Shown here: positions 1 through 39,788 of the stretch, one piece after another
Numbering within the stretch: the stretch's first letter is position 1
Layout: each line of letters opens with the position of its first letter
Notes under the pieces: generated by a model
Told to the model about the DNA's origin: nothing
Databases searched by the model: none
Seen by the model: only the letters and a program-made list of their open reading frames with translations
Program-made: the position numbers and the translations under genes
Assembly: GCF_000334895.1 (NCBI RefSeq)
Contig: NZ_BAFM01000016.1
Span: 1 to 64,000, forward strand
Length of the DNA stretch: 64,000 bases
Source: Halococcus agarilyticus
Lineage (GTDB): Archaea > Halobacteriota > Halobacteria > Halobacteriales > Halococcaceae
Direction of reading: 5' to 3'

Positions 1-139
1 CCGCAGTTCCAACCTGGCCAAGACCTGCCGACAACCCCAGACCACTGATGCTTGCCGCCCCCACCGTCCGGAGATAATTCCGTCTCGTTGCACTATTGAA
101 TCGTTCTGAATTGGAATTTGTGTTACTCGAATCTCCCAT
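1..139 (-). CDS. N-terminus of a Tat-exported protein, cut by window edge
   Basis: Reading the minus strand from the ATG at 139, the frame stays open for 46 codons to the window edge. Residues 18-26 read TRRNYLRTV, a good twin-arginine (Tat) motif. It is preceded by a polar Ser/Asn-rich n-region and followed by a Gly/Ala/Ser hydrophobic stretch. The product is therefore probably exported in folded form by Tat, as most haloarchaeal secreted proteins are. No lipobox cysteine appears in the visible part. The start is preceded by an AT-rich stretch suited to a promoter. The mature domain lies outside the window, so its function cannot be stated. Confidence 0.7.
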   Translation of the reverse strand, partial: MGDSSNTNSNSERFNSATRRNYLRTVGAASISGLGLSAGLGQVGTA

Positions 140-4280: not shown

Positions 4281-5996
4281 ATGGCAGCACACAACCTGTC
4301 CGATTACGAAACCACACGCGAGGAGTTCGCGTGGGACGATATCTACGCCGAGGCCGACTGGGACGCGCCCAGCGAGCTGAACGTCGGCCACGAGGTCTGT
4401 GATCGACACGCCGACGGTACTGGTCGAACTGCGCTCCAGTACGCCGGCACCGACGGCGAGCGCGAGACGATGTCCTTCGACGAACTCGCGGAGCGCTCGA
4501 ACCGGTTCGCGAACGTGCTCGAAAATCAAGGCGTCGAGCGGGGCGATCGGGTGTTCACCTACATGCCCCGAATCCCCGCTCACTACGTCGCGCTGATCGG
4601 CACGCTGAAGCGCGGGGCGGTGTTCGGCGGCGTCAACGAGCGCTTCGGCCCCGACGGCATCGCCTACCGGCTCGACGACTGCGACGCGACCGCCGTGCTG
4701 ACGACCGCGGCCAACCGCGAGACCGTCGAGCGCGCGCTGGAGGACGCGCCATCCGTGGCGACAGTCATCACGGTCGAACGGGACGACGGTGCTGGTGAGG
4801 GAGACGGCGACGATAGCGATGAGGACGCCATCGCCGACGGCGACGTGCAGTACGCCGACGCGATGGCCGACGCGAGCGCCGAGTACGAGGCCGCCAGGAC
4901 GAACGGCGAGGACGACGCGCTGCTCTACTACACCAGCGGGACCACGGGCCCCGCGAAGGGCGTCCGCCACAAACACCGGTGGGTCGCGGGGGTCGCGGCC
5001 ACCCAGCGGTTCGCGGTCGATCTCACCGACGACGATCTCTACTGGTCGACCGCCGATCTCGGCTGGCTGACCGGCCCGATCAACGTCCTCGGGGCGTGGT
5101 TCTGGGGCACGAGTCAGTTCACCTACGAGGACGAGTTCGATCCCGAGGCATGGGCTACCCTGCTCGACGAGTTCCCGATTTCCGTCCTTTTCAGCGTGCC
5201 GACGGCCTACCGGATGCTCCGGACGAACGAGGCCGTGCTCGACGGCGTGGATCTCGATCTGCGCCACGCGCTCTCGATCGGCGAACCCCTCTCGGCGGGT
5301 GTGGTCGAGTGGGGCGAGGCTTCGCTCGGCGTCACGATCCTCGACACCTACGGCCAGACCGAGACCGGCAACATGGTCATCAACAACTACCCGACGATGG
5401 AGCTCCGGCCGGGGAGCATGGGCAAACCTCTGCCGGGTATCGAGTCGGCCATCGTCGATCCCGAGACCGGCGAGGTGCTTTCACCCGGTGAAACCGGCGA
5501 GATCGCCCACCGTGGCGAATTCCCGTGCTTTTTCGCCGGCTACTGGGAGAACCAGAAGAAAACCGACGCGTGTTTCGTCGACGGGCCGAACGGCGAGTGG
5601 TATCTCTCGGGCGACCTCGCGCACAGGGACGAGGACGGCTACTTCTGGTTCGAGGGGCGTGCCGACGACGTGATCCTCTCCTCCGGCTACCGGATCGGCC
5701 CCTTCGAGGTCGAGTCCTCGCTGGGTGAACATCCTGCAGTAACCGAGGCCGCTGTCGTCCCGAAACCACACCAGGAGCGCGGCAACATCGTCAAGGCGTA
5801 CGTCGTGCTCACCGACGGCCACGACGCCAGCGACGAACTCGCCGAGGAGCTCAAGACTCACGTCCGCGAGGAGCTCTCAGCCCACGAGTACCCGCGGGAA
5901 GTGGAGTTCGTCGACGACCTCCCGAAGACCGTCACCGGAAAGATCCGCCGGACCGAGCTCCGCGATCAAACTGTCGACCCGACCGCGGACGACTGA
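4281..5996 (+). CDS. Acyl-CoA synthetase (acetyl/medium-chain type, AMP-forming)
   Basis: A 571-residue member of the ANL superfamily that activates a carboxylic acid to acyl-AMP and then acyl-CoA. The phosphate-binding loop YYTSGTTGPAKGV lies at about 216-228, TYGQTETGN forms the adenine-binding A5 region, YLSGDLAHRDEDGYFWFEGRADD-type residues give the hinge, and the catalytic lysine is in TVTGKIRR near the C-terminus. The closest match by feel is the acetyl/propionyl or medium-chain acyl-CoA synthetase group; substrate is not certain. An acidic insert (about 165-185) is a likely salt-adaptation loop. The ATG at 4281 was preferred over an in-frame ATG at 4251 because it starts at the conserved MAxHNL-like N-terminus. 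Confidence 0.85.
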   Translation: MAAHNLSDYETTREEFAWDDIYAEADWDAPSELNVGHEVCDRHADGTGRTALQYAGTDGERETMSFDELAERSNRFANVLENQGVERGDRVFTYMPRIPAHYVALIGTLKRGAVFGGVNERFGPDGIAYRLDDCDATAVLTTAANRETVERALEDAPSVATVITVERDDGAGEGDGDDSDEDAIADGDVQYADAMADASAEYEAARTNGEDDALLYYTSGTTGPAKGVRHKHRWVAGVAATQRFAVDLTDDDLYWSTADLGWLTGPINVLGAWFWGTSQFTYEDEFDPEAWATLLDEFPISVLFSVPTAYRMLRTNEAVLDGVDLDLRHALSIGEPLSAGVVEWGEASLGVTILDTYGQTETGNMVINNYPTMELRPGSMGKPLPGIESAIVDPETGEVLSPGETGEIAHRGEFPCFFAGYWENQKKTDACFVDGPNGEWYLSGDLAHRDEDGYFWFEGRADDVILSSGYRIGPFEVESSLGEHPAVTEAAVVPKPHQERGNIVKAYVVLTDGHDASDELAEELKTHVREELSAHEYPREVEFVDDLPKTVTGKIRRTELRDQTVDPTADD

Positions 5997-16924: not shown

Positions 16925-17018
16925 GCAGAGGGAACAAGCCAGGGGTGGGATTCGAACCACCTGAACTTCGCTCGCTAGCGCTCGCTCGTTCCGTACTTCG
17001 AATCCCACGTCGGCTCTC
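16925..17018. repeat. Partial copies of the tRNA-Thr 3' end (one direct, one inverted)
   Basis: Downstream of tRNA-Thr, 16937-16958 is a 22-bp exact direct copy of the tRNA 3' end (17049-17070); a shared GCAGAG at 16925 and 17043 extends it. A second, inverted copy at 16997-17018 matches the T-arm (TTCGAATCCCAC) and, after a short diverged gap, the tRNA end plus trailer (GGCTCTC). The direct and inverted copies form a 12-bp perfect inverted repeat (16945-16956 with 16997-17008) around a 40-base loop rich in GCTCGCT. No protein is coded here. Confidence 0.8.
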
Positions 17019-17048
17019 ACCGACCTCACCTTCGTTTGGACGGCAGAG

Positions 17049-17122
17049 AGCCAGGGGTGGGATTCGAACCCACGAATTCTCGATTACAAATCGAGTGCTT
17101 GCACCGCCCAAGCTCCCCTGGC
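17049..17122 (-). tRNA. tRNA-Thr (anticodon TGT)
   Basis: A 74-base cloverleaf on the minus strand. The acceptor stem is GCCAGGG/CCCTGGC with an unpaired T as discriminator, the D-arm is GCTT/AAGC, the anticodon stem CTCGA/TCGAG encloses TTTGTAA (anticodon TGT), and the T-arm is GTGGG/CCCAC with loop TTCGAAT. No intron is present and CCA is not encoded. Position 8 is G rather than the usual T. Confidence 0.93.
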
Positions 17123-30092: not shown

Positions 30093-30275
30093 AAGGGCGA
30101 GGCGAACGAGCGAAGCGAGTGAGCCGAGGGCTTCGGTGGTGCTGTGTGTGGCGGGTGTGGAGAACGTCCGTGCGAGCGAAGCGAGCACGGTTCACCGTGA
30201 GCGAACGAAGTGAGCGAGCGGGTGTTTTTAGTCCAGGTTTTTGGAAGGGGTTCGAGTGCGAGCGGAGCGAGCACG
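30093..30275. repeat. Cluster of GCGAAGC-centred short palindromes
   Basis: Several quasi-palindromes of the form GAGCGAAGCGA or GAGCGGAGCGA follow one another (about 30103-30124, 30169-30189, 30200-30220, 30256-30274). The one at 30169 has outer arms CGTGC/GCACG. Such units recur in the gaps at 42.8-43.0 kb and 44.4-44.7 kb. No transposase is present. The stretch separates the PTPS promoter from the dehydrogenase terminator. Confidence 0.7.
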
Positions 30276-39403: not shown

Positions 39404-39522
39404 TCGCAAGCAAACTGGGGATGGGATTCGAACCACGGCCAGACGTTCCTGCTCGCTCACTTCGTTCGCTGTGCGGGCTGCGACTGGTCTACTTCGAATC
39501 CCAACGTGTCTCGATTGCTTGC
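39404..39522. repeat. Partial copies of the tRNA-Ser 3' end (one direct, one inverted)
   Basis: 39404-39434 is an imperfect direct copy of 39562-39594. It shares TCGCAAGCAA from the trailer and 19 bp of the tRNA 3' end (39416-39434 with 39576-39594). An inverted copy at 39493-39522 has TTCGAATCCCA, a diverged 8-base stretch and CGATTGCTTGC, matching the tRNA T-arm and trailer. The inverted copy pairs with the native trailer (10 bp, 39513-39522 with 39564-39573) or with the direct copy (11 bp, 39422-39432 with 39493-39503). No protein is coded here. Confidence 0.8.
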
Positions 39523-39572
39523 TCACGCGGTTGCTCGCGCACAGGGCGCTCGCAGGTGTGTTCGCAAGCAAT

Positions 39573-39655
39573 CGGTGGGGATGGGATTCGAACCCATGAG
39601 GCCATAGGCCACCTGTTTTCAAGACAGGCGCGATAGTCCACTCTGCCACCCCACC
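39573..39655 (-). tRNA. tRNA-Ser (anticodon TGA)
   Basis: An 83-base class II tRNA on the minus strand. Acceptor stem GGTGGGG/CCCCACC with G as discriminator, anticodon stem CCTGT/ACAGG around CTTGAAA (anticodon TGA), a 14-base variable arm able to form GGCC/GGCC, and T-arm ATGGG/CCCAT with loop TTCGAAT. No intron and no encoded CCA. Confidence 0.93.
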
Positions 39656-39788
39656 GCGTCTTGATCTACTGGTCTGCGCATCTAATTGCTGTCGGTTCAT
39701 CTTCTACCAATTCAGCTACATAAACCCGGCCGATTTCCGAGTCGGGGCTATAAAATACTGCTAACTAAATAGTGTATTTTCCCTAATT

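Follow-up and report, generated by a model that had tools for sequence, protein, structure and literature searches.

Archaeal tyrosine integrases of the SSV, pNOB8, SNJ2 and HSTV2 types leave attachment-site duplications at tRNA genes, in which a direct repeat of the tRNA 3′ end bounds the insert, the tRNA remains intact and the presence or absence of the insert is precise (PMC8371274, PMC3293823). Insertion into tRNA genes themselves is known from archaeal tRNA introns and from the disruption of tRNAs by mobile elements (PMC3293823). Haloarchaeal MITEs, SMRs (~110 bp) and IS605-related PATEs are small, gene-free and transposase-free sequences with hairpins near their ends (PMC3119063). REP/REPIN sequences are intergenic imperfect hairpins that are probably mobilised in trans (PMC3116915). 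Finally, the attC sites of integrons and CALIN arrays form imperfect hairpins from one strand, in which an internal loop is flanked by a conserved stem and the terminal structure varies, and they stand in tandem arrays with a boundary at a G|TT step. Integrons have been reported in archaeal MAGs of nine phyla (PMC9668308), and a text search of that report gave no mention of haloarchaea.

Here we describe a structured unit behind a tRNA-Thr gene of Halococcus agarilyticus, located in a stretch of 64,000 nt (positions 1 to 64,000 of contig NZ_BAFM01000016.1, hereafter the window), and its relatives at other tRNA genes. Like the integrase attachment-site duplications, these units are bounded by direct repeats of a tRNA 3′ end. 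However, only about 80-200 bp lie between the repeats, with an extra inverted T-loop and conserved hairpins and without an integrase; an integrase element or its remnant between the repeats was seen at one locus alone (L340). Unlike tRNA introns and disrupted tRNAs, the chromosomal units sit after a complete tRNA, although a tRNA-Cys on a Haloarcula plasmid is interrupted at the T-loop. The units resemble MITEs, SMRs and PATEs in size but are tRNA-specific and bounded by copies of the end of their target tRNA; in place of terminal inverted repeats they have direct tRNA-end copies, and the inverted T-loop is internal. REPs, in contrast, are not built from tRNA ends. The likeness to attC sites extends to a single-strand hairpin whose stems are conserved and whose terminal structure varies (covariation in two classes; 37 sense against 1 antisense motif matches), whereas the R′ core site GTTRRRY is replaced by a GTTCRAA boundary, and the units are tRNA-anchored, partly made of a tRNA end, with no cargo gene identified and no integrase linked. 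No earlier description of such units was found in the open-access literature searched, subscription papers being outside its scope, and they appear to form a family of small, tRNA-based insertion elements that has not been described before.

Results

The anchor of the unit is a minus-strand gene for tRNA-Thr (anticodon TGT) at 17048-17122, detected by ARAGORN and by Rfam RF00005 with 58.2 bits. A sequence-only reading of the window had noted that the last 22 bp of this gene recur downstream, and the repeat is indeed exact: the 22-mer AGCCAGGGGTGGGATTCGAACC is found at 17049-17070 and at 16937-16958, with a start-to-start spacing of 112. The proximal copy (17049-17070, minus strand; GGTTCGAATCCCACCCCTGGCT) is the 3′ end of the tRNA from G53 to the discriminator base N73, plus one shared G. 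The same limits emerged from a boundary analysis of 42 units, where the repeated segment runs from the G of GTTC to the discriminator base and identity falls off on both sides. The order of parts in the tRNA sense is constant: directly after N73 comes a trailer hairpin, followed by an antisense T-loop (GGATTYGAA), a core stem and the second G53-N73 copy.

At tRNA-Thr, the trailer hairpin (hairpin A; 33 nt, 17016-17048, minus strand) consists of 2-bp steps separated by G-A type mismatches and was recognised from its fold and from similar hairpins 3′ of other tRNAs. The inverted copy of the T-loop and T-stem, which the sequence-only reading had placed between the two direct copies, covers 12 nt at 16997-17008 (plus strand, TTCGAATCCCAC) without a mismatch to either 22-nt copy (100% complementarity) and gives the antisense T-loop GTGGGATTCGAA in the tRNA sense. 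As that reading had also described, it is followed by GGCTCTC (17012-17018, plus strand) after a diverged gap of 3 nt; this is the inverted discriminator end with the start of the trailer, and when the unit is folded its partner is the distal GGCT. The core stem-loop of hairpin B (16959-16996, minus strand) belongs to class B and, by fold and similarity, is paralogous to the tRNA-Lys(TTT) unit (78% match between the units, 84% over 76 nt). The distal direct copy (16937-16958, minus strand) closes hairpin B. The entire unit thus spans 112 nt (16937-17048, minus strand), with no gene identified inside. Folded on its own, it reached z = -5.7 with RNA and -3.3 with DNA parameters, and none of 200 shuffles was equally stable. 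In a profile search against Rfam 15, tRNA was the only family above the gathering score in the window, and the best non-tRNA matches remained below it. The tRNA-Thr is complete and lies upstream of the unit, which does not fit an archaeal tRNA intron.

The arrangement had been said to recur at tRNA-Ser, and the tRNA-Ser (anticodon TGA) found by tRNA search at 39572-39656 on the minus strand carries it. Its unit (39413-39572, minus strand) is longer, with 160 nt, and follows the same plan: a trailer hairpin, an inverted T-loop at 39493-39503, a class A core and a distal copy at 39413-39433 with 3 mismatches.

For the whole genome, 42 tRNAs were located and the 500 nt after each were read for a copy of the tRNA's own tail, defined as the 21 nt from G53 to the discriminator N73 with at least 17/21 matches. 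Such a copy was present downstream of 15 of the 42 detected tRNA genes and upstream, over the same distance, of 0; 21-mer probes from unlike tRNAs matched in 6 of 1448 cases. These controls bear out the view that chance is an improbable source of the pattern, which recurs at other tRNAs and, in the relatives, order-wide. An intron-containing tRNA-Trp (G000:C22, L084 about 5690-5820), missed by the Infernal tRNA search, also has its own unit, with a distal copy matching its 3′ end. The interval from tRNA to copy is ~80-200 nt, and no gene was noticed in it. Leu-GAG carries two identical 125-nt units in tandem, and Lys-TTT and Ser-CGA have two units each.

The idea that all copies come from the adjoining tRNA holds for one half of the repeat structure. 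The direct copy is tRNA-specific, the own tail being the best match among the 42 in 14 of 15 units. For the inverted copy, the own tRNA is uniquely best in just 3 of 15 units, including Thr; most of this copy is generic, its common part being the antisense T-loop GGATTYGAA. T-loop base 57 covaries with the direct copy (UA in 11 and CG in 10 of 22 sequences). Related cores occur at different tRNAs, each with the direct copy of its host tRNA (Thr/Lys-TTT 84%, Ala/Ser 90%). None of these pairs is recent, and no two different tRNAs were found to share near-identical (>95%) units, so that no recent transposition is documented. Downstream of tRNA-Lys(CTT) (L004/L084, G000), the trailer hairpin and inverted T-loop are kept, and AT-rich DNA, with 43% GC over the first kb, stands in place of the core and direct copy, which suggests a later insertion into the unit.

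A long imperfect hairpin, formed by the sense strand only, is closed by pairing between the antisense T-loop and the direct copy. In the class C core (22 sequences), 95.5% of cells are paired, and double-change cells number 35 against 10.9 in shuffled and at most 4 in slid alignments. The corresponding values for class A2 (24 sequences) are 96.5% paired and 38 double-change cells, against 10.8 shuffled and at most 12 slid. The double changes in these two classes therefore indicate that the core stem is maintained by compensatory change. The motif NN-GA-NN-GNA-NN-GA-NN was found 37 times in the sense strand of 48 units, once in the antisense strand and 0.015 times in shuffled sequence. With RNA parameters, the sense loops were C(GNA)G in 37 cases, C(GNAB)G in 8, C(GNYA)G in 6, GNRA in 2 and UNCG in 0; under DNA energy parameters, the GNA-loop and strand biases were weaker. 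GNRA and UNCG are the tetraloops typical of RNA, and GNA loops can form in RNA too. The loops found in the units fit DNA-stable motifs, namely d(cGNNAg) and d(cGNABg), which Nakano et al. 2002 give in their title (cited in PMC2984261, PMC5090098), and the GAA triloop of DNA (PMC5090098), which favours, short of proof, a folded DNA strand as the relevant form.

Among 41 relatives, the pattern GGATTYGAA-(40..70)-TTCRAATCC was present in 30, with 0 for the reversed control. With a stricter pattern, 29 of the 33 genomes from the same order gave matches, 0 of the 164 others from the phylum did, and the reversed control was again at 0. All 20 loci inspected have a tRNA gene near the hairpin. The tRNA neighbourhoods were sampled mainly in four genomes (G000, G002, G008 and G020), and several genomes are drafts. 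One relative has three units at Tyr, and several hairpins follow one tRNA-Ser. Named carriers include plasmids of Natronorubrum bangense and Haloarcula halophila as well as Halobium salinum, which gave the one match in a strict class C scan of genome contigs. DNA similarity identified two units in plasmid records and weak, partial matches only in phage records. In viral contigs, matches to the generic unit pattern were mostly due to chance among those listed, one clear unit (L480) came from the more specific class patterns, and none from that of class C.

Two loci from this survey have a particular gene context. In L339 (2860-4920, G022), two tRNA-Gly(GCC) genes lie 1.7 kb apart with a methyltransferase-like reading frame between them, and their units share an identical core. 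On the Haloarcula halophila plasmid (L251, NZ_CP119561.1, 3858-6993), an array of ~22 tRNAs is flanked by the genes for a type B DNA polymerase and for a TROVE-domain (Ro60-like) protein, and most of its tRNAs are missing from the listed annotation. One tRNA-Cys of this array is split by a ~70-nt core, precisely at G53|T54, and has a single 3′ half. This would fit insertion at the T-loop without duplication; precise deletion of one half is the alternative.

Close relatives differ in which tRNAs carry a unit. At Arg-CCG, the same-genus genomes G002 and G008 differ by exactly one 102-nt unit. At Asp-GTC, the same two genomes differ by one unit, and the flank after the distal copy is the flank of the unit-less tRNA. 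A third genome (G000) also has no Asp unit, at comparable spacing, which makes a gain in G002 the simpler reading of this difference. Recombination between the 21-nt repeats, leading to loss, could explain most of the presence/absence differences. Units at Arg-TCT, Ile, Phe and Tyr occur in nearly all genomes sampled, and most other tRNAs are patchy; the Thr-TGT unit was found in the window's genome only, among three same-genus genomes compared. The parts of a unit also change separately. In close species, trailer hairpin and core have been swapped independently of each other at Tyr, Asn and Lys-TTT, and the core at Ser-TGA is of class A in two species and of class C in two others. Distal copies sometimes retain an older tRNA sequence, as at Arg-TCT and Arg-CCT. 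These two cases were considered as proof that the element supplies a new tRNA end, and this was rejected, since mutation after duplication explains both equally well.

Discussion

Our tentative reading, held with somewhat less than even confidence, is that the feature at tRNA-Thr is one copy of a haloarchaeal family of miniature insertion cassettes, which carry no genes, are anchored at tRNAs, target the T-loop and are mobilised in trans. The element proper would consist of the trailer hairpin, the antisense T-loop and the core. With the help of a dedicated recombinase, it would enter the T-loop or 3′ end of a tRNA gene and leave the 21-nt end on both sides, keeping the tRNA intact. The antisense T-loop may be the arm that recognises the T-loop sequence common to tRNAs, and the one-strand hairpin may be the DNA form presented to a recombinase or transposase supplied in trans, by analogy with the hairpins of integron attC sites or of IS200/IS605-type elements. 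It counts against this reading that we know of no transposase for which a precise 21-nt duplication ending at N73 is typical. A more far-reaching version, which we regard as doubtful, is that the units represent a new site-specific DNA cassette system. Gene-free hairpin cassettes of single-stranded DNA would then recombine at tRNA T-loops, use the antisense T-loop as the target-recognition arm, regenerate the tRNA 3′ end at either side and form integron-like tandem arrays at tRNA genes.

It is also conceivable, if rather unlikely, that the unit is an RNA element, co-transcribed with the tRNA as a structured trailer that tunes 3′ processing or releases a small hairpin RNA. Several observations point this way. 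The unit ends, behind the N73 of either copy, are RNase Z positions; in the units examined, the orientation is always downstream and sense; the cores of classes C and A2 show compensatory pairing; and the Arg-TCT, Tyr, Phe and Ile units are near-universal in the genomes sampled. In addition, the proximal and distal 3′ ends can be rivals for pairing with the 5′ acceptor strand: when tRNA-Thr was folded as RNA together with its unit (z = -7.0), the acceptor strand paired with the distal copy and the proximal end was sequestered in hairpin A. However, on inspection, hairpin A did not seem to capture the acceptor end in units generally, the loops are of the C(GNA)G type and not the GNRA or UNCG typical of RNA, and no Rfam family besides tRNA scored above threshold. 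The hairpin class can change at one and the same tRNA, as with classes A and C at Ser-TGA. Most tRNAs are patchy, units are lost precisely between sister species, and a unit can be missing without any other change; it is therefore not essential for tRNA maturation. The sequence-only reading had suggested that the inverted copy pairs in RNA and thereby affects 3′ processing; the folds are compatible with this and stop short of establishing the mechanism, and the unit's patchiness between sisters weighs against it.

About as improbable is a passive origin, in which replication strand-switching at the quasi-palindromic T-loop, slippage, homologous recombination between tRNA 3′ ends and gene exchange would have produced the units without dedicated mobility, using intergenic G-A hairpins as raw material. 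TTCGAA is a palindrome, and the G-A hairpin motif is also abundant elsewhere between genes and thus not specific to the units, with the reservation that the gene calls near these motifs are crude. In the window's genome, the palindromic G-A motif (NNGANNGNANNGANN) is frequent between genes and often clustered between convergent ones, for example at 30106-30270 of the window and in L081-L100. A passive origin accounts for homogenisation and for the exchange of modules, such as the independent replacement of hairpins A and B at Tyr, Asn and Lys-TTT, and the older tRNA sequence kept in some distal copies (Arg-TCT, Arg-CCT) agrees with it. However, it does not readily explain the conserved two-hairpin order, the sharp boundaries at G53 and N73, a common core at many different tRNAs, or the restriction to one order.

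Very unlikely, in our view, is that the units are scars of conventional integrase-encoding viruses or plasmids that integrated in tRNA genes and were later deleted. The sequence-only reading had raised an integration scar, and the shape is right, since unit-sized segments are precisely present or absent between repeats and direct repeats of a tRNA 3′ end are the classic footprint of an integrase; the usual agent, however, was not found. One candidate was L340 (2775-6100, G226), a ~3-kb element at tRNA-Gly(TCC) between two near-identical 177-bp repeats, each made of 42 nt of tRNA and a complete unit. It encodes an HSTV2-type tyrosine integrase (~43% identical to the HSTV-2 protein), a DUF7342 protein and a 168-aa ORF without family match, and is the sole gene-bearing interval seen. 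Similarly, the viral contig IMGVR_UViG_3300027007_000028 (L480, 1-450) ends in the 3′ part of a tRNA-Gly(GCC) followed by unit-like hairpins, and is a provirus boundary at a unit-bearing tRNA. Nevertheless, integrase-element repeats at such tRNAs are 42-46 nt long, against 21 nt for units, and those of L340 and L480 start in the anticodon arm, which makes the units passengers.

The link to a tyrosine integrase that L340 led us to expect failed elsewhere. No unit hairpin was found within 1.5 kb in any of 36 tyrosine-integrase loci sampled at the level of the family PF00589 (0/36), and the same type of integrase as in L340 is present at a tRNA-Glu without a unit. Together with the passenger position of the units, these results do not support a linked tyrosine integrase. 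A scan of genome contigs for the L340 integrase gave no confirmed relative. In 20-kb stretches downstream of 20 tRNAs, there was no exact copy of the own tail farther than about 300 nt and no large island; a far-downstream near-match in these stretches turned out to be the missed intron-containing tRNA-Trp with its own unit. For the insertion cassettes that we favour, it is possible that the enzyme acts in trans. Chance similarity or an assembly artefact, for which the draft state of the genome alone could be adduced, has a negligible probability and is refuted by the own-tail and reversed-pattern controls and by independent genomes, complete single-contig ones included.

From a biological perspective, these units stand at about a third of the tRNA genes in the window's genome and at comparable fractions in the relatives sampled, and they occur in most genomes of a large archaeal order. 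If they are mobile, they would constitute a tRNA-targeted cassette family that uses one-strand hairpins and lies outside the archaeal integrons reported so far. If they function as RNA, they would form a widespread, tRNA-specific layer of tRNA maturation. Either way, the units confound the annotation of haloarchaeal tRNAs, the prediction of attachment sites and the calling of provirus boundaries.
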